Positions 11,725 through 19,181 of a stretch of DNA of 64,000 bases are shown in pieces (within the stretch, counting starts at the first letter, position 1; every line of letters starts with the position of its first letter). The notes below the pieces were generated by a model. It saw nothing but the letters and a program-made list of their open reading frames with translations. It was not told the DNA's origin and made no database searches. Position numbers and translations under genes: made by a program. The DNA lies in the NCBI GenBank assembly GCA_903904855.1, contig CAIVEH010000167.1, positions 62,001 to 126,000 on the forward strand. The letters are read 5' to 3'. The DNA is from an uncultured Bacteroidota bacterium (GTDB taxonomy: Bacteria > Bacteroidota > Bacteroidia > Chitinophagales > Chitinophagaceae).

Positions 11725-12075
11725 GTGGGTGCAAATGTAATAAAATTTCGGTGGTTACCAATTTTCTCAGCAATTCAGCTGATAAAAATTTCTTGTAAGG
11801 AAGTATTTTGCTTTTACCCGGGCATTGGATGGGTATTTTTGTTGGTAATCTTCAGGCATTTCAGGATTACTTTAACAGTGTTTCAAGAGTAAACAAAATT
11901 GGCATTTCATTTATTGCTTGTTAGTGGAAATAATTTACGGATTATAATTTTCAAAGCAACCTTTCAAGTGACCAAGGCATATATGTAAAGAGCGAACCTG
12001 TAGCAGTAAGTATTATTCGCTAGGCAAAAAGTCAGTTTATTTTATAACTATCAATATTTACCTAAACAATTCCTT
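11725..12075. other. Gene-free spacer containing a diverged repeat (copy 1)
   Basis: About 350 bases without a gene. Bases 11759-11877 are related to 13159-13259, on the other side of the next gene: shared blocks include CAATTnTCTCAnCAATTCA, GGATGGG, AATCT, ATTT and AGGAT in the same order. The rest is AT-rich leader of the gene at 12076 with no clear promoter match. Confidence 0.6.
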
Positions 12076-13140
12076 ATGAAATTCAATGCCCTGATTCTGT
12101 TTACTATAATTTCATTAGCCTGTACTGCAAAAGACCATAGCAAACTTAAAGACTATCTGCTTCATCACAGTTATACGATAGACCTGAATTCAGACTCAGC
12201 ATTTAATATGCTGCCAACTTTGATGAAAGGTAAAAATGTGCTTGTTCTGGGAGAAGGCGGGTCTCATAAACTGCCATTGTATACAACCCTGAAACCAGCC
12301 CTTATAAACCAGCTTGCCAAACAAAACCTTAAATACTATATCATAGAATGGTCGAGGGCCACGGCTATGCTTATCAATAATTATCTGCAAAGTAAGAATA
12401 AGAATTGTCCCGATGAATTGGAACCCTTATGTGGTCTTTGCAACAAGTTAAAACCAATAATTGAGCGCGGGCATGAATTTAAAGTAGTTGGTATAGATTT
12501 TGAGTTTTGTGGCGATTTGCACACGGAGATGCAATTACTTTTTGGTAAAACAAACCTGGATGTTCTGCCTCATTCCAAAGAACTGCTGCGTGACTTATTG
12601 AGTAACCGGTATAAGAATGTTTTCCGCAAAAAATTTAAGGAGTTTTACCTGGTGGAGCAGGCGAAATTCTGCCAGGACAGTGTTGCTATCAGAAAAGAAC
12701 TGGGAGAAAAGTATGATGAACTCAGATATCTGCTGACCAATCCAAATACAACGTATCCTGGAATAGACAGGAATGGTGGACTGGCTGAGAACCTGCAAAG
12801 TGAATTAACGCCTCTGGATACTTCAGCTGCATACCTGGTAGATGTAGGGCTTGCCCATTCCATACCATCTGAATCTTATTCGATGATGCACAAAATATAT
12901 AGAAACGATACTTTAAGACAAAGGACGATAATTATGAACCTCCATTGCTGGAACTGCACCTTGAACGGCGAAAATTTAGATGCTACAGTACTCAATTTCC
13001 TGAAGGGTGATGTTCTTGATTGTTTCACCAGCGCGACAAATACAACACTTACATTGTTCGATCTTTCAGAGCTTCCTGATGAATATAGTTACATAAAAGA
13101 ATCGGGCGATCTTTTGTTATTTGCCAAAGACCTGCATTAA
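12076..13140 (+). CDS. Exported erythromycin-esterase-like protein
   Basis: The 354-residue protein begins with a hydrophobic signal (MKFNALILFTIISLAC); the cysteine at 16 could be lipidated, although the residue at -3 is unusual. Residues 53-64 read NVLVLGEGGSH, matching the GE..H start of the erythromycin esterase / EreA-ChaN-type fold, followed by KYYIIEWSRATAMLINNYL, where E and R positions of that family are found. A later histidine block (GLAHSIP, about 265) fits the same fold. Many Bacteroidota members are exported hydrolases of unknown substrate. The assignment is inference; a role in drug resistance is not implied. The gene stands alone, bracketed by two diverged repeat copies. Confidence 0.55.
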   Translation: MKFNALILFTIISLACTAKDHSKLKDYLLHHSYTIDLNSDSAFNMLPTLMKGKNVLVLGEGGSHKLPLYTTLKPALINQLAKQNLKYYIIEWSRATAMLINNYLQSKNKNCPDELEPLCGLCNKLKPIIERGHEFKVVGIDFEFCGDLHTEMQLLFGKTNLDVLPHSKELLRDLLSNRYKNVFRKKFKEFYLVEQAKFCQDSVAIRKELGEKYDELRYLLTNPNTTYPGIDRNGGLAENLQSELTPLDTSAAYLVDVGLAHSIPSESYSMMHKIYRNDTLRQRTIIMNLHCWNCTLNGENLDATVLNFLKGDVLDCFTSATNTTLTLFDLSELPDEYSYIKESGDLLLFAKDLH

Positions 13141-13373: not shown

Positions 13374-14174
13374 ATGAATTGCATAATGAAAGGCTTTTGG
13401 TTTCTCCTGCTGATGCTCTGTCTGCTAAACGAAGTTATTGCCCAAAATAATTCGGTTCAACAGGAGCATCCCATCCCCTGGAAACCTATAAGAGAAGATG
13501 AAAACCTATGGAAGAAGAAGCGGATATGGCGCGAAATAGAGGTGTATAAGCAGGTAAACAGCCCGTTAAGAAGCGGCCAGACAGATGCGTTTGCAATTGT
13601 TTTGCTGACAGGTATAAGGTCTGGCGAAATTAAGGCATATTCGAACGACGATACTACCTACAAACATCCTTTGACAATGCAGGCTATAGATACACTAATT
13701 ATGTGCGATATAGCAGGCCTATCGGCCTATACCCGCAATTACCTGAACTGCTTTTCCAGGCACCAGGGCAATATTACCATCAGAGATACATCCGCGATCG
13801 GATCATGTACATTCCCGCAACAGGTAGAATTTTATGACATCAAAGAAGATTGGATATTCGATGCTGATGAGGGTAAGATGGTGGTGCATATTGATGGCAT
13901 AGCCCCGGTGGCTTATGTTAAAGGTGTGAAAAACCCCCTGTTCTGGCTGCATTACCCGGATATCAGAAGCTATATCAACAATTACGGAGTGTATGATTGT
14001 GGCATAAATATGAATCTGAGTTGGGACGGGTATTTTGAATCCCGCATGTTCAGATCAAGAATCACATATGTTCAGGGGGCTAAGGAGCAGGTAGAAGAGA
14101 AAAAACAACGAAAACGCAGGAAGAAGACTAACGAAGATGATAGTGTATCGTCTCATGATGTGTGGGTTTATTGA
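13374..14174 (+). CDS. GldN-family type IX secretion protein paralogue (first of three)
   Basis: The 266-residue precursor has a signal peptide (cleavage probably after VIAQ, residue 24). It follows the GldN/PorN pattern: IPWKPIREDENLWKKKRIWR (34-53), where GldN has a D-x-LW-x-K-x-W-R block, KEDWIFDADEGKMVVHIDGI (about 158-177), FWLHYPDIRSYI (about 190) and LSWDGYFESRMF (about 214-225). GldN is the periplasmic partner of GldM/GldK in the type IX secretion core. Here there is no gldK, gldL or gldM next to it. The C-terminus is unusually basic (KKQRKRRKKTNED). It overlaps the sigma-factor gene by 38 bases and leads an eight-gene operon. Confidence 0.8.
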   Translation: MNCIMKGFWFLLLMLCLLNEVIAQNNSVQQEHPIPWKPIREDENLWKKKRIWREIEVYKQVNSPLRSGQTDAFAIVLLTGIRSGEIKAYSNDDTTYKHPLTMQAIDTLIMCDIAGLSAYTRNYLNCFSRHQGNITIRDTSAIGSCTFPQQVEFYDIKEDWIFDADEGKMVVHIDGIAPVAYVKGVKNPLFWLHYPDIRSYINNYGVYDCGINMNLSWDGYFESRMFRSRITYVQGAKEQVEEKKQRKRRKKTNEDDSVSSHDVWVY

Positions 14175-14775
14175 TTTTTTGAACATCGGGCAACCCTTAC
14201 CATACAACCAGCATATATATCAATGTAAAGCACACATACTAACTGCATTGACCGAGCAAAAAGCCATAGAGGGATGTAAAAAGCAAGACAGGATATGTCA
14301 GAAGTACCTGTTTGATACCTACTCCGATGGGATGCTGATGGTATGCATGAGATATGTGAAGAGCCTGCCTGATGCTGAGGAAATGATGCTGAATGGTTTT
14401 TATAATTTCTTCAGGGCAATAGACCGGTTTATTTATAGCGGGCAGGGGAGTATTGGTGGATGGCTGAAGAAAATTATGGTGAACGAATGCCTGATGCACC
14501 TGAGAAAAAAAGGACTGAAAATTGTGAATGAATCTGACGCCTGCAACCTTACTGCGGATGACGGATTGATAAGCCGGATGAATGCCAATGAAATCTATAA
14601 ACTGGTGATGACACTGCCTGAAGGATACCGGACTGTCTTTAATCTTTTTGTATTAGAAGGATACAGCCACAAGGAAATAGCAATGATGCTGGGCATTAAC
14701 GAAGGCACAAGTAAATCGCAACTGAATAGAGCAAGAATGCAATTACAGAAAATGATAAAAGAACGTGCGTTATGA
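14137..14775 (+). CDS. ECF-type sigma factor
   Basis: The 212-residue frame contains an ECF sigma factor. Region 2 spans about residues 55-115 (KYLFDTYSDGMLMVCMRYVK, DAEEMMLNGFYNFFRAIDRF) and region 4 about 165-208 (LPEGYRTVFNLFVLEGYSHK, then EIAMMLGINEGTSKSQLNRA). The real start may be later than 14137, since the first 40 residues overlap the upstream GldN-like gene and are not conserved in such factors. It is followed by its probable anti-sigma gene with an ATGA overlap. In Porphyromonas an ECF factor (SigP) controls type IX secretion genes, which makes the company of GldN-like genes notable. Confidence 0.9.
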   Translation: MIVYRLMMCGFIDFLNIGQPLPYNQHIYQCKAHILTALTEQKAIEGCKKQDRICQKYLFDTYSDGMLMVCMRYVKSLPDAEEMMLNGFYNFFRAIDRFIYSGQGSIGGWLKKIMVNECLMHLRKKGLKIVNESDACNLTADDGLISRMNANEIYKLVMTLPEGYRTVFNLFVLEGYSHKEIAMMLGINEGTSKSQLNRARMQLQKMIKERAL

Positions 14776-15554
14776 AATACACTGAGGGAGATCAGATAAC
14801 AAAGCAAAAAATGGAGGCACTGGGGACACTGGATGGTGGTATTGTTTTTGGCAGGGAGGAGGCATGGGAAAAACTACAGAGAAGACTTGATAAAAAGCCG
14901 GCAAAGAAAATAGTTTTGAAATGGTGGCTGGCAGCAGCAGCGGTGTTGCTGATAATAATATTCTGTGCAGGTTTATTGTATATTCCTTCAAAACAGATCA
15001 ACGGAATTTCACAAACAACTGGCCAAACGATTAAGATGGCTGAGGAAAGTAAAATTGATAGTCAGTCATTACCGGTAAATACGACCCCATTGAATTTAGT
15101 AAATGAAAAAGCGCAGGCTGCCAGACCTGAAAAAGTATATAGCAAGCCGGATACCCGTAAGCAGAAGAAAATTGAATCAGTAGCTCTTAAACCTGTGCAA
15201 CAACAATCGGTTGCTGTTCCAGTAAATACCATGCCAGAGATAGCCATTAAAAATAATTCAAACTCAGGTCCTGCAACAGAGTTTAAAGTGGTACACATTA
15301 ACGAGCTGGCTTATGGTGGCAACGTTGGTTATTCTATAACTCAGCCTGGGCAACCACAAACTGTGGTAATAAATAAAATGAAGGTTGTCAGTTTTAATGA
15401 CCTCGAAGACAACAGGTCGAAGAGAATGATGGAAGAAGAAGAGATGAAATGCCAGGAGAAAAATGTAGCAAAAAAACTAAACAACGTTATTACTTCGGAA
15501 GGATACAGTACACTCAATCCCTTGCATAAAATCAAAATAATCACCCAAAAATAA
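14772..15554 (+). CDS. Single-pass membrane protein, probable anti-sigma factor
   Basis: The 260-residue protein has a cytoplasmic N-terminus (1-47, rich in E and K), one membrane segment (about 48-69, WWLAAAAVLLIIIFCAGLLY) and a long low-complexity outer part. The N-in topology and ATGA overlap with the ECF sigma gene fit an anti-sigma factor, although no ZAS zinc motif (HxxxCxxC) is present. The extreme C-terminus reads STLNPLHKIKIITQK, and a very similar LSPLHKIK occurs in the small secreted protein at 17277-17609. Function by context is inference. Confidence 0.65.
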   Translation: MKYTEGDQITKQKMEALGTLDGGIVFGREEAWEKLQRRLDKKPAKKIVLKWWLAAAAVLLIIIFCAGLLYIPSKQINGISQTTGQTIKMAEESKIDSQSLPVNTTPLNLVNEKAQAARPEKVYSKPDTRKQKKIESVALKPVQQQSVAVPVNTMPEIAIKNNSNSGPATEFKVVHINELAYGGNVGYSITQPGQPQTVVINKMKVVSFNDLEDNRSKRMMEEEEMKCQEKNVAKKLNNVITSEGYSTLNPLHKIKIITQK

Positions 15555-15559
15555 AGCTT

Positions 15560-16777
15560 ATGAAGTATTCCTTAATTGGCTTACTGCTGCAGATAGCAGT
15601 TATGCAGCACCCCCTGTTTGCTCAGGATCAAGGCAACCATAGAAAATCGAAAGCAGAAATGCTCTTCAATATGAACCCGCCTTTTGTGAATAATATTCAC
15701 ACGGCCCACCTGCTCAAAAATGAGTCGATGATTATTGAGCTGGCCGACCTTACCGATTACGACCTGCTCAATAACCTTGATTCCATTATGCGGGAGCTGA
15801 TGAAGGATATTGAATTCTATAAAGACTCAATGCCGGTGACAGGTAATATCAGGATTGATTATGTAGTTACGGAAGATAGCCATGAGAAGATAATGCGATT
15901 TGCAAAGTACTCTGCCGAAGGAGAATTTTTTGTGAAGCAAAGAAATGATATAGCAAGGCTGAAACTTGACCAGGATACAGTGCATATTATACTTCAGAAA
16001 AAACCGAACGACCGAAGTAACCATGCTCATTTTTATGATTTCCCGGCCCAGGTTACGTTCTGCCTGAACAATTATACAGATATAGATACGCTGCTGAACA
16101 ACAAAGGGTTTATCAAGGCAGTAGTAGATACGCTGATGAATGCAATTCCACCAAAGAAGGTTAATCCGGAACATGAATTTCCTTATGGCGGGCCTACTCA
16201 ATCAACTGTAGATTATTACCCATACAGTACTTATAATAAAATTCGCAGATCATCTGTAATACTGCCTCATGGCAAACTGGAAGCGCCTTTGCCTTATAAC
16301 AGGACCAAATTTGCAGCTTATGGTAATTTTTCGGCGGGGCTAATCAGAAATACATTTACACCCGGGGTAGAGGCCGGAATTACACACCTCAAGTTTAACA
16401 GGTCGCCCTATCCCGATCATTTTTTCTTTACCAGTCTTTATGTTTCTTCGGTTTATTTCTTCAGTTCGGGTGGCGATGGCAACCAGGTTGTGAATGATAA
16501 TTATTTCGTGAATATAGAAAGTGGAAGCGCAGGTATGGACGACGATATGCTGGGTGTAAAAGTTCGGTCTGTATCCTTAGGAGGCGGGTATTTGATAATC
16601 AGTAAAGGGGAGTATTTTAAGGCTAACACCGTAAGATTATTTATGGGCCTGCGCCTGGGTTCGGGGCTATCCATTTATCCTGAGCTGATTGGTACCAACA
16701 ACCTCAAACAGATATTTCCCGGAATGACACTGAAGATATTTGGTTTCAAACGGGAACAACATTTCAGTATAAGATGA
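15560..16777 (+). CDS. Secreted hypothetical protein of the GldN-like operon (405 aa)
   Basis: I do not recognise this protein. It has a signal peptide (MKYSLIGLLLQIAVMQHPLF-AQ) and a mature part of about 383 residues. The C-terminal half (from about 250) is rich in aromatic-alternating strands and glycine (FAAYGNFSAGLI, FFTSLYVSSVYFFSSGG, VRLFMGLRLGSGLSIY), as in an outer-membrane beta-barrel, but the usual terminal aromatic is absent (it ends FSIR). It starts 5 bases after the anti-sigma gene and overlaps the next gene by 4 bases, so it is firmly within the operon. Confidence 0.6.
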   Translation: MKYSLIGLLLQIAVMQHPLFAQDQGNHRKSKAEMLFNMNPPFVNNIHTAHLLKNESMIIELADLTDYDLLNNLDSIMRELMKDIEFYKDSMPVTGNIRIDYVVTEDSHEKIMRFAKYSAEGEFFVKQRNDIARLKLDQDTVHIILQKKPNDRSNHAHFYDFPAQVTFCLNNYTDIDTLLNNKGFIKAVVDTLMNAIPPKKVNPEHEFPYGGPTQSTVDYYPYSTYNKIRRSSVILPHGKLEAPLPYNRTKFAAYGNFSAGLIRNTFTPGVEAGITHLKFNRSPYPDHFFFTSLYVSSVYFFSSGGDGNQVVNDNYFVNIESGSAGMDDDMLGVKVRSVSLGGGYLIISKGEYFKANTVRLFMGLRLGSGLSIYPELIGTNNLKQIFPGMTLKIFGFKREQHFSIR

Positions 16778-17223
16778 AAAGGATAATACTGGTACTGGTA
16801 CTGTTATTGTTATTCTCGGTAGATATTTTATCCGCTCAATCAGTGTTCCTGAAAAAGGATACGATAGTAGCAGGCAAAACAAACTATGCCTTGTTTAAGA
16901 AGGGGAATACACAACCTTTAGAGTATTTCGTTTACAATCTGAAAGGAGTGGAACTTCTGGAGATGCATTGTGGCAGGATTGAGATCAATGGAAAGCCAGG
17001 ATATGTAGTCAACTTTCTGAATGATATGAAGCAGGCTATGATAACAAAGGATGCCGGGTTTCCTTCGACTTTTATTAAAGAAATAGTGAGCCGGCAATTA
17101 ATAGTTGGGAATATGATAGATAAAGAAAGTGAACTGAAATTTATTGCAGCAAATCCGTTACCAGTAGGATATACTGATGTGGAGCAGTTGATTGAATTTG
17201 ATGGGTACAAGAGTATAAAGTGA
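16774..17223 (+). CDS. Secreted hypothetical protein (149 aa)
   Basis: This 149-residue protein has a clear signal peptide (MKRIILVLVLLLLFSVDILSAQ) and a small mature domain of about 125 residues with no family I recognise. An LEYFVYNLKGVELLEMHCGR segment and NGKPGYVVNFLND suggest a beta-rich fold. It is translationally coupled to the upstream gene (ATGA overlap). Periplasmic or surface location is likely. Confidence 0.55.
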   Translation: MKRIILVLVLLLLFSVDILSAQSVFLKKDTIVAGKTNYALFKKGNTQPLEYFVYNLKGVELLEMHCGRIEINGKPGYVVNFLNDMKQAMITKDAGFPSTFIKEIVSRQLIVGNMIDKESELKFIAANPLPVGYTDVEQLIEFDGYKSIK

Positions 17224-17276
17224 AAAATTTGGCTTGATAAGAAAAATGCATTAGTTTTATTTAATAATCAAATTGT

Positions 17277-17609
17277 ATGAAGAGGATTAATTGTATGCTC
17301 GTGTTAAGTCTTTTGCTACTTGCCAGCAATAGTGAAGTAATGGGGCAAACCACCACACCTTATTATGATAATATCCGTAAGGAGAAAGAATTGTCTCCAT
17401 TGCATAAAATAAAACATGCTCTTATTGATAATAGTCCAACTCGCGAGACTCAGTTCAACCGGAGTTTTAATAATTGGGCGTACAATAATAGAATAGGCCT
17501 GTTTAAACCTGTTACCCAATTTGAACAAATAGGAGAGCTGCATAAAGTAAAGCTTGATTATGTGCCCAAACCCAATATGGGCTTGCTATACAATAAATTT
17601 AAGTTTTGA
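17277..17609 (+). CDS. Small secreted protein with PLHKIK motif (110 aa)
   Basis: The 110-residue precursor has a signal peptide ending near EVMGQ (residue 24) and a polar mature part of about 86 residues that starts TTTPYYDNIRKEKELSPLHK. The LSPLHKIK motif repeats almost exactly the last residues of the putative anti-sigma factor at 14772-15554 (LNPLHKIK). Low hydrophobicity and many N/K residues suggest a soluble periplasmic peptide. Function unknown; a partner role with the anti-sigma factor is speculation. Confidence 0.55.
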   Translation: MKRINCMLVLSLLLLASNSEVMGQTTTPYYDNIRKEKELSPLHKIKHALIDNSPTRETQFNRSFNNWAYNNRIGLFKPVTQFEQIGELHKVKLDYVPKPNMGLLYNKFKF

Positions 17610-17636
17610 TTTTTCCTAACCAAACAAATTGAGATT

Positions 17637-18398
17637 ATGAACATTTTCAGATTCCTAAAAAGTAGCTTACTCCCTGGTATATTGCTTGTAAGTACAATTG
17701 CTCAGGCGCAGATCAATAAATCTGTAACCATTGTCAACTACCTGCAATTGGTATCGTTATTGCACCAGGATAATAACCTTAAAGTGGCAGATGACCCTTA
17801 TGTATTGCCATGGCTGAAAAGTATCCGAAGCGAAACCTTATGGGCTATGTGTGTGTCGCGTAATGTTTATGTCGATGAGCCATCAAACCAGGCATTAGGT
17901 AATATGCCTGCAGGGAAACAGGGTAACCTCGCCTCCATTCTTGTAAAGGGAGTCTTGGAAGGTAAATTCAGTGCGCAGTATGCAAGCAATGAATATAAAC
18001 CTATGGAGCTACCCGCTTTTATATCATTGCTCACTACAGGCAACAAGAGTAGCCTGCATGGATTTAACCCGGAACAAGTAATTGGTTACCGGATAAAAGA
18101 GGATTGGATATACCTGCAGAAGGAAAAGAAAATGGCAGTACAGATTTCGGGCATCGCTCCTTTAATGAAGGTGATCAATGATAAAGGAGTCAGTGTTGAT
18201 CAACCGGTATTCTGGTTATATTACAGTGAAGTTCGGGAGTATCTTGCTTCTGTTAAGGTGCCGGATAATGCCATGAACTTTACCGGCAATATGGATCAAT
18301 TTTTAGTTGGACGCAACTATACCGGCAAAATAGACATGGTTATTGACCGTGGCTGCTCCGGGTATGATTACTGGACTGAAAAGGCCCTGCATTTTTAA
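17637..18398 (+). CDS. Divergent GldN-like protein (second of three)
   Basis: The 253-residue precursor has a signal peptide (cleavage near IAQAQ, residue 25). The N-terminal third is diverged, but it keeps the GldN-family blocks: ALWAMCVSRNVYVD-type segment replacing the LWKK...WR block, YRIKEDWIYLQKEKKMAVQI (about 150-170), SGIAPLMKV and FWLYYSEVREYL (about 195). The final LxWDxxFxxRxF block is replaced by NFTGNMDQFLVGRNYTGKID. It is therefore a relaxed family member that may have changed partner. It is the penultimate gene of the operon, 27 bases after the small secreted protein. Confidence 0.65.
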   Translation: MNIFRFLKSSLLPGILLVSTIAQAQINKSVTIVNYLQLVSLLHQDNNLKVADDPYVLPWLKSIRSETLWAMCVSRNVYVDEPSNQALGNMPAGKQGNLASILVKGVLEGKFSAQYASNEYKPMELPAFISLLTTGNKSSLHGFNPEQVIGYRIKEDWIYLQKEKKMAVQISGIAPLMKVINDKGVSVDQPVFWLYYSEVREYLASVKVPDNAMNFTGNMDQFLVGRNYTGKIDMVIDRGCSGYDYWTEKALHF

Positions 18399-18428
18399 TG
18401 CTTTTTAACCACTATTATTTTTCAGTTT

Positions 18429-19181
18429 ATGAGGAGACATAAATTTATTCTGATACCTGCCTTTATCATTTATTCAGGTATAGCAGGTACCGCAAATGCG
18501 CAAAGCAACAATACGCCAGCCGATTTGGTAAAAGCGCCACAATCGGCAGAAGCCATAAATAAATTGGCGCCGCAGGATACGTATTCAATACCATGGGCGC
18601 AGATAAAGGAAGAAGACATTTTATGGAAGAAAAGGGTGTTGCGCGATATAGATATTAATGAAGCAGGTAATGAGGCATTTCAACATATAAAAGATGCACC
18701 TGATTTTGCCAATATGTTAATTGGAGGAATAAAGGCTGGTGAAATAAAGGCCTATAATGCAGTGGATGGGGGCAGATTCAGTAGTGTATTAACCTCTTCT
18801 GAATTCTCCGGTATAATGTCCGGAGGAAATAATCCGGAGAATCATTTCAGTCCTGCGAAAGTATCAAAATACAGGATCAAAGAAGACTGGTTATTCATTG
18901 AAAAGGATCATAAGATGGTGGTAAGGATAGTAGGTATAGCGCCTGTTATGAAGGTTACAACCCCTGATGGTACCAGCAGTGAGGGAGAATTATTCTGGTT
19001 ATATTATCCTGATATCCAAAATTTTCTGGCACAGCATCTGGCAAATACCAGTGACAAAATAATGAAGTTGAACTGGGATGAGTTTTTTGAAACCAGAAAT
19101 TTCAAAAGTACAATTGTTCAAGTATCAGAAGGTTACAGGCAGGGAGCCAGGAATAAGAGTTCAATGCCATCGGGTAAGTAG
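18429..19181 (+). CDS. GldN-family protein (third of three)
   Basis: This 250-residue precursor is a clear GldN relative. After a signal peptide (to about TANAQ, residue 25) it has IPWAQIKEEDILWKKRVLRD (about 55-75), KIKEDWLFI-type block YRIKEDWLFIEKDHKMVVRI (about 148-167), GIAPVMKV, FWLYYPDIQNFL (about 192) and LNWDEFFETRNFKSTIVQV (about 215-233). It has the same blocks in the same order as the protein at 13374-14174. It ends the operon; a T-rich tract follows without a good hairpin. A structural role in a variant type IX secretion N-ring is possible but unproven. Confidence 0.82.
   Translation: MRRHKFILIPAFIIYSGIAGTANAQSNNTPADLVKAPQSAEAINKLAPQDTYSIPWAQIKEEDILWKKRVLRDIDINEAGNEAFQHIKDAPDFANMLIGGIKAGEIKAYNAVDGGRFSSVLTSSEFSGIMSGGNNPENHFSPAKVSKYRIKEDWLFIEKDHKMVVRIVGIAPVMKVTTPDGTSSEGELFWLYYPDIQNFLAQHLANTSDKIMKLNWDEFFETRNFKSTIVQVSEGYRQGARNKSSMPSGK

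Follow-up and report, generated by a model that had tools for sequence, protein, structure and literature searches.

A sigma factor cassette with linked GldN paralogues in the Chitinophagaceae, a possible envelope-sensing circuit

Why are three GldN-family proteins, relatives of a ring subunit of the type IX secretion system (T9SS), encoded beside an extracytoplasmic function (ECF) sigma factor, with no gldK, gldL or gldM alongside? The question is raised by a gene cluster in the 64,000-nucleotide stretch of DNA analysed here (the window), which is part of contig C167 in the 5.6-Mb draft genome of an uncultured member of the Chitinophagaceae. A reading of the letters alone (the sequence-only reading) had described the cluster as one self-regulated eight-gene operon, perhaps an alternative ring module or a sensor of secretion stress. 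Our preferred explanation, to which we assign a probability of roughly 0.48, is an envelope-sensing sigma circuit, built like a split Dma system and accompanied by linked GldN paralogues, which would act on or through the T9SS. The architecture of the cassette is well supported; its function we infer. Handles beginning with G denote genomes of the genus (35, including the window's own), those with L denote loci, and those with C denote contigs, of the window's own genome unless another is named.

The argument concerns nine + strand genes, encoding P354, GldN A, the sigma factor, a membrane protein, a barrel protein, two small secreted proteins, GldN B and GldN C, and two copies of a promoter-like element.

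11955 to 11984, + strand: sigma-promoter-like element AGCAACCTTT-N12-GCATATAT, 5′ of the gene for a protein of 354 amino acids (aa); 1 mismatch, core score 28.0 against -9.0 reversed.
12076 to 13140, + strand: P354, a secreted 354-aa protein, candidate member of the sigma regulon; open reading frame (ORF) with no Pfam or NCBIfam match.
13374 to 14174, + strand: GldN A, of the sigma-linked GldN clade; PF19841, 2.7e-35.
14189 to 14218, + strand: sigma-promoter-like element GGCAACCCTT-N12-GCATATAT in the gap between GldN A and sigma; 1 mismatch, conserved before sigma across the genus.
14248 to 14775, + strand: ECF sigma factor, 175 aa, TTG start; PF08281 and PF04542 above cut-off, start from the alignment of relatives.
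14772 to 15554, + strand: anti-sigma candidate, with an N-terminal segment, one transmembrane helix and a long tether with VVHINEL-type motifs; alignment of 21 sequences and hydropathy.
15560 to 16777, + strand: 405-aa secreted protein, with an alpha/beta N-terminal domain and a C-terminal eight-strand barrel of outer-membrane type; alignment of 26 sequences and AlphaFold2 (AF2) model.
16774 to 17223, + strand: 149-aa secreted protein, no Pfam or NCBIfam family above cut-off.
17277 to 17609, + strand: 110-aa secreted protein, no Pfam or NCBIfam match.
17637 to 18398, + strand: GldN B, divergent, without the canonical C-terminal helix; PF19841, 6.9e-25.
18429 to 19181, + strand: GldN C, without the canonical C-terminal helix; PF19841, 1.6e-41.

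All eight ORFs of the sequence-only reading were recovered where it had placed them, and its ECF assignment held. Its range leaves out the gene at 12076, which is also preceded by the element. The start that it gave for the sigma gene, 14137, was rejected: relatives align only from residue 38 of that frame (from 41 in one relative and from 60 in a fragment at a contig end). Because they begin there, the start is placed at the TTG codon at 14248, which leaves a 73-nt gap to GldN A and no overlap. The overlap between GldN A and sigma was therefore an artefact of the ORF start, while those of 14772 with the sigma gene and of 16774 with 15560, 4 nt each, are real.

The identification of the next gene product as a membrane anti-sigma candidate is supported by its position, topology and relatives. 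Its gene adjoins the sigma gene, an order conserved in the genus, and the protein has one strong transmembrane stretch (KD19 2.83 at residue 53). In the alignment of its relatives the N-terminal stretch around GGIVFGKEEAWxKLQ is conserved, and the tether is variable with two conserved short motifs.

The 405-aa protein completes the cassette. Its AF2 model has a mean pLDDT of 75.9 and a pTM of 0.50, and residues 249–398 form a barrel that compares with NspA, OprF and PagL at VIA Z about 13. A sequence search of the PDB was fruitless, Foldseek with the full model gave no match at 0.001, and the fold search found no solved match for the N-terminal alpha/beta domain (best VIA Z 3.7). Relatives occur in 24 of the 34 other genomes of the genus and in three genomes outside it, and the order sigma, membrane protein, barrel protein recurs around them. 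Sequence records matched by the barrel protein carry names such as Flavipsychrobacter, Taibaiella, Chitinophagaceae and uncultured Bacteroidetes. The sigma factor itself, at an identity of at least 63%, is present in 24 of the 35 genus genomes. A paralogous set lies on contig C68 of the window's own genome (L142), where a sigma factor 47% identical to that of the window, a membrane protein and a barrel-like protein stand at the contig end.

This architecture recalls the Dma/Das systems of Bacteroides thetaiotaomicron, which are described as restricted to the Bacteroidota. In Dma of Bacteroides an anti-sigma domain, a transmembrane helix, a disordered tether and a barrel follow one another, and the sigma factor is encoded adjacently (PMC13088901). 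Shared with the window are the ECF sigma factor and the outer-membrane barrel, together with a candidate anti-sigma end, a predicted transmembrane helix and a putative long tether. The window differs in that tether and barrel belong to two proteins, that the barrel protein has an extra N-terminal domain, and that cassettes of this type are linked to GldN genes in part of the genomes. The cassette thus resembles a Dma cut in two; because a single chain is a defining feature of Dma, it is not filed as one. In two loci of more distant Bacteroidota (L220 and L222), an anti-sigma-like end, a hydrophobic stretch and a barrel-like end do share one chain beside a sigma factor, the barrel-like ends being 27% and 26% identical to the 405-aa protein.

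The clearest regulatory signal is an element of the form GGCAACnTTT-N12-GCATATAT, with fixed spacing, which lies in the 73-nt gap before the sigma gene. It precedes sigma in 22 of 22 genus cassettes with upstream DNA read; G005, at a contig end, and G019, whose cassette was assessed via contig numbers only, stand outside this count. With leave-one-out matrices, the core scored 22.7 to 31.9 in 21 of the 22 cassettes, 20–227 nt before the start, against a best reversed score of 1.2. The remaining cassette, of G023, has an exact site 44 nt before the sigma match. Allowing at most one mismatch, 20 sites were found in the 35 genus genomes and none with the reversed control, and 13 of the 20 precede sigma; 296 genomes of the phylum held two exact sites, neither just before a gene. 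A separate matrix scan returned 64 matches, which are not independent, as some of its loci overlap and some were chosen by the pattern, and the leave-one-out scoring is the cleaner test.

At most one mismatch is shown in the window's own genome only by 11955–11984, before the gene at 12076, and by 14189–14218, before sigma. Own-genome sites with two to three mismatches were set aside as weak, since up to three mismatches gave 30 sites against 23 for the reversed control. Beyond the 22 cassettes, the element scores 20.6 to 28.5 before sigma in L198, L204, L208 and L213 and, outside the genus, in L046 and L047, which come from other genera. It is weak or absent before the distant sigma genes of L217 (12.0), L222 (11.5), L218 (3.1) and L220 (-8.2), and also before the paralogous sigma gene of C68, within 104 nt upstream. 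Scans for sigma-70 promoters and terminators were not above shuffles.

The self-regulation surmised by the sequence-only reading is borne out to this extent, that a promoter-like element of the autoregulatory kind precedes the sigma gene. A single eight-gene operon is probably not present, as this sigma-specific element lies 3′ of A: GldN A is upstream of it and GldN B and C are downstream. No element was seen by eye before GldN A in eight A upstream regions, which scored -5.0 to 7.7 against the 22.7 to 31.9 found before sigma.

Other targets are suggested by sites in relatives. In G002 a lone GldN gene directly follows the element, at about 20 nt if a start picked inside a longer frame is used. 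Two related secreted proteins, one in G025 and one in G017, carry a T9SS type A sorting domain (TIGR04183, 47 bits, cut-off 23), and the element lies 168 and 208 nt ahead of them, respectively. In G015 and G028 the element precedes secreted-looking proteins with no family match, and in G009 one site has no convincing target. Judged from these sites, the putative regulon in relatives touches both GldN and T9SS cargo.

The association of GldN with this sigma factor extends beyond the window, as a comparison of neighbourhoods across the genus made clear. In 9 of the 24 sigma-bearing genus genomes (G000, G001, G004, G013, G020, G022, G024, G026 and G027) a GldN gene lies directly upstream of sigma on the same strand, and the linked cassettes occupy two different chromosomal surroundings. 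G027 has a second GldN gene 3′ of the barrel gene. Many of the genomes compared are metagenome bins, and contig ends hide the neighbours in G005 and G006.

In a quick tree of 102 GldN domains, built like the tail counts below on a subset of the GldN loci, the linked domains fall in one clade (SH-aLRT 100) of 15 rows, 11 of them linked (ten genes). Window C is not firmly placed in this tree, and B sits on a long branch. The unlinked rows of the clade come from G007, G011 and G006, the last at a contig end with neighbours as in linked loci; no sigma match was found in G007 and G006, and in G011 it lies elsewhere in the genome. On the sigma tree, linkage needs five changes on the best tree and at least two by well-supported branches, with G005 counted as unlinked although its contig end leaves the state undecided. 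This scatter implies losses or repeated gains.

Two further arrangements are separate hints of regulatory GldN domains. One protein of G017 (L105:3964-5361) joins a GldN domain to a BlaR1-type M56 peptidase (PF05569, above cut-off), with a BlaI-type repressor (PF03965) in the cluster, and G031 (L107) has the same fusion broken over two frames. No full-length M56-GldN match was found in a 147-genome sample of the family, where G017 and G031 are not among the genomes listed. On contig C653 of G022 (L145:6921-8287), a different, second ECF sigma gene lies directly upstream of a GldN gene.

The three window proteins do belong to the GldN family, as the sequence-only reading had held. Their hidden Markov model matches to PF19841 (curated cut-off 23 bits) reach 122.5 bits for A, 88.5 for B and 142.9 for C. 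Against TIGR03523, the equivalog model of the type IX ring subunit (cut-off 85.9 bits), A passes narrowly (86.8), C passes (103.3) and B fails (64.4).

Ten GldN matches were found in this genome. Contig C72 carries gldK, gldL, gldM and gldN, each above its curated cut-off. Contig C96 carries a second set. Its GldM and GldN clear their cut-offs, GldK, at 317 of 350 bits, and GldL, at 61.8 of 68.3, fall short, and behind the set comes a weak match to PorG (34.5 of 130 bits). The absence of gldK, gldL and gldM noted in the sequence-only reading is true of the locus and not of the genome. The T9SS core is complete without the window's GldN proteins. That one of them fills a cluster lacking its N is ruled out, as both clusters retain their own gldN. 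Neither of the two refuting outcomes proposed with the sequence-only reading was observed.

A raised GldN copy number is a trait of the genus: each of its 35 genomes has 2 to 10 matches, and among 37 other members of the family a single match is the rule, seen in 34 (the exceptions have 3, 2 and 0). In the family and genus surveys, coordinates of weak GldN matches refer to those among the matches listed. Contig C51 bears three adjacent genes with four GldN domains, one with MORN repeats, and C39 encodes a longer protein similar to the MORN one; these tandem GldN and GldN-MORN repeat proteins (L011:6817-10068 and L012:4544-6667, respectively) represent a separate GldN clade in the genus. The own genome also encodes GldM-like partial proteins, all below the GldM cut-off (L140:4616-5284, L140:3306-4076, L141:3945-4703 and L138:3907-5133). 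Proteins restricted to the last GldM domains are encoded on C39; a 222-aa GldM-like protein spans only positions 326–517 of the GldM model, and the partial proteins might be partners for GldN cores.

What the extra GldN proteins keep and lose can be read against the cryo-EM structure of PorKN, where the N- and C-terminal helices of PorN and a loop hold PorK, and domain D4 of PorM binds other loops (PMC12421860). The mapping from PorN to the window proteins is by sequence alignment only. In canonical GldN proteins of the genus the core is preceded by 47–59 residues and followed by a C-terminal tail of 41–50, with a tryptophan motif at its end (30 of 30). A-type proteins are shorter ahead of the core, with 17–22 residues (39 in one case), and their tail is lysine/arginine-rich or truncated. 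Window A has about 20 residues before the core, lacks the canonical N-terminal stretch by alignment, and has a 36-residue lysine/arginine-rich tail ending HDVWVY (canonical EHDMWVY). In B and C the tails are 21 residues long and without the tryptophan motif, the near-end tryptophan of B lying outside it; about 40 residues in B and 39 in C precede the core, without the canonical PSKTPDGAYDR-type stretch.

Alignment and tail length indicate that none of A, B and C has the canonical C-terminal PorK-binding helix. In A, moreover, a loop with a cysteine takes the place of the hairpin that joins the core strands, and two cysteines invariant in 11 of 11 aligned members of the A-type clade are lacking in all 4 canonical proteins aligned. 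The terminal tryptophan is found in 2 of 25 other extra GldN genes outside the window and in 0 of 19 of the C51/MORN group. No gldK lies alongside A, B or C, gldKLMN occurring elsewhere only at C72 and C96. GldN cores without the GldK-binding C-terminal part are probably not ordinary ring subunits.

Taken as an envelope-sensing circuit, the cassette might work as follows. In the resting state the sigma factor would be held by the cytoplasmic end of the anti-sigma protein, whose transmembrane helix and long periplasmic tether would reach the outer-membrane barrel protein, the pair working like a Dma cut in two. A change in the outer membrane or in the secretion machine would loosen the contact of tether and barrel and free the sigma factor, which would then switch on both its own unit and the P354 gene at 12076. 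The GldN cores would most likely bind the GldM tip, or the proteins resembling it that this genome also encodes, tuning or reporting the state of the T9SS. GldN A, which is beside sigma in nine genomes and not directly behind the element, is the most promising candidate for an adaptor that links the T9SS with the barrel/anti-sigma pair.

The same genes can be explained in other ways. A, B and C could be alternative ring subunits that, under some condition, enter the GldK ring of C72 beside GldN or in its place, as GldO partly replaces GldN in Flavobacterium johnsoniae. The GldN domain in all three, the equivalog-level scores of A and C, the HDVWVY ending of A, the residues kept before the core in B and C and the precedent of GldN and GldO agree with such a role. 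The PorK-binding C-terminal helix is, however, missing or replaced in all of them, A lacks the N-terminal stretch and has its loop in place of the core hairpin, and no gldK lies nearby, so the alternative ring module of the sequence-only reading is weakened; we consider it unlikely, and less likely than the envelope-sensing circuit. The GldN proteins might otherwise be the input of a secretion-stress sensor, binding GldM tips or the ring, in which case the barrel/anti-sigma pair would read whether they are free or bound. Conservation of A beside sigma but not behind the element, in the eight A upstream regions scored, is consistent with an input, as is the M56-GldN fusion beside its BlaI-type repressor, intact in G017 and in two frames in G031. 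B, C and the lone GldN of G002 are nevertheless placed behind the element as outputs would be, and most cassettes (14 of 24) have no adjacent GldN, which leaves the sensor a doubtful explanation. That multiplied GldN copies merely landed beside the sigma cassette, without joint function, would agree with the copy number raised genus-wide and with the scattered linkage on the sigma tree. This is improbable given that the sigma-linked GldN proteins form a single clade, which has invariant cysteines of its own and is retained in two different chromosomal surroundings, and given the element before a GldN gene in G002.

Several observations also count against the envelope-sensing circuit with linked GldN proteins. 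The anti-sigma candidate matches no family above cut-off in Pfam or NCBIfam. The 14 cassettes without a neighbouring GldN (G005 being undecidable at its contig end) indicate that the circuit can exist alone, and Flavipsychrobacter stenotrophus RB1R16 (L198) has the core cassette with no GldN beside it in the 15 kb covered. Since the element comes only after A, the roles of A and of B/C may differ; A is also 233 nt 3′ of the P354 gene, itself behind an element, and read-through into A is possible. The element sites before T9SS cargo and before a lone GldN come from relatives and not from the window's own genome. As for the ring, 6 of 12 A-type proteins with a readable C-terminus, window A included, have the terminal tryptophan motif and could still touch GldK, and the roughly 40 residues before the core of B and C could hold an N-terminal helix.

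Control of T9SS genes by ECF factors and the existence of GldN paralogues are already known. In Flavobacterium psychrophilum SM6, an ECF/anti-sigma pair shares an upstream motif of ECF type with gldN, porU and other T9SS genes (PMC9723704). There the target is gldN as a core component and the motif has a CGT box; in the window the GldN genes encode paralogues that lack the canonical C-terminal helix, the element differs, and a barrel is linked. In Porphyromonas gingivalis, PorX/PorY and the ECF factor SigP govern T9SS genes (PMC4800418, PMC8265659). The analogy with SigP drawn in the sequence-only reading is a loose one: the input there is a two-component system, the available parts of both papers mention no linked anti-sigma factor or barrel, and the window's sigma factor, with its tethered anti-sigma candidate and barrel, is more like the Dma/Das pairs. 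Flavobacterium johnsoniae encodes GldN together with its paralogue GldO, and each is reported to contact the periplasmic domain of GldM (PMC8986121); their partial redundancy is taken from the title of a reference cited in that paper. GldO is treated there as a part of the GldKN/O ring, unlike the window proteins without the canonical C-terminal helix. Within the range of our literature search we found no description of a clade of GldN proteins that goes with a Dma-like sigma cassette, nor of GldN fused to a BlaR1-type peptidase.

Some of the neighbouring genes are shared with related loci. Relatives of P354, 46–47% identical, adjoin the same cassette in L051, L058, L060 and L143; by eye, P354 may be similar to erythromycin-esterase-like proteins. 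The 149-aa protein has a 56% identical relative 3′ of the barrel gene in L055. Inspection by eye shows a short PLHKIK stretch both at the end of the anti-sigma candidate (about 15510–15551) and in the 110-aa protein (17277–17609).

To our knowledge, how Bacteroidota sense load or failure of the type IX secretion/gliding machine is an open question. A sigma circuit with GldN paralogues, a clear promoter-like element and cargo sites in relatives would offer a direct handle on it. The locus also suggests that anti-sigma systems of the Dma type exist in a two-protein form, and F. stenotrophus RB1R16 is a named strain where the sigma/anti-sigma/barrel part is testable. A bolder view, which we hold only tentatively and think doubtful, is that GldN has become a periplasmic signalling domain, once as a clade on a split Dma circuit and once in the BlaR1-type fusion, both reading the secretion/gliding motor via the GldM tip. 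More generally, the cassette suggests that these bacteria reuse parts of a secretion ring in envelope signalling.

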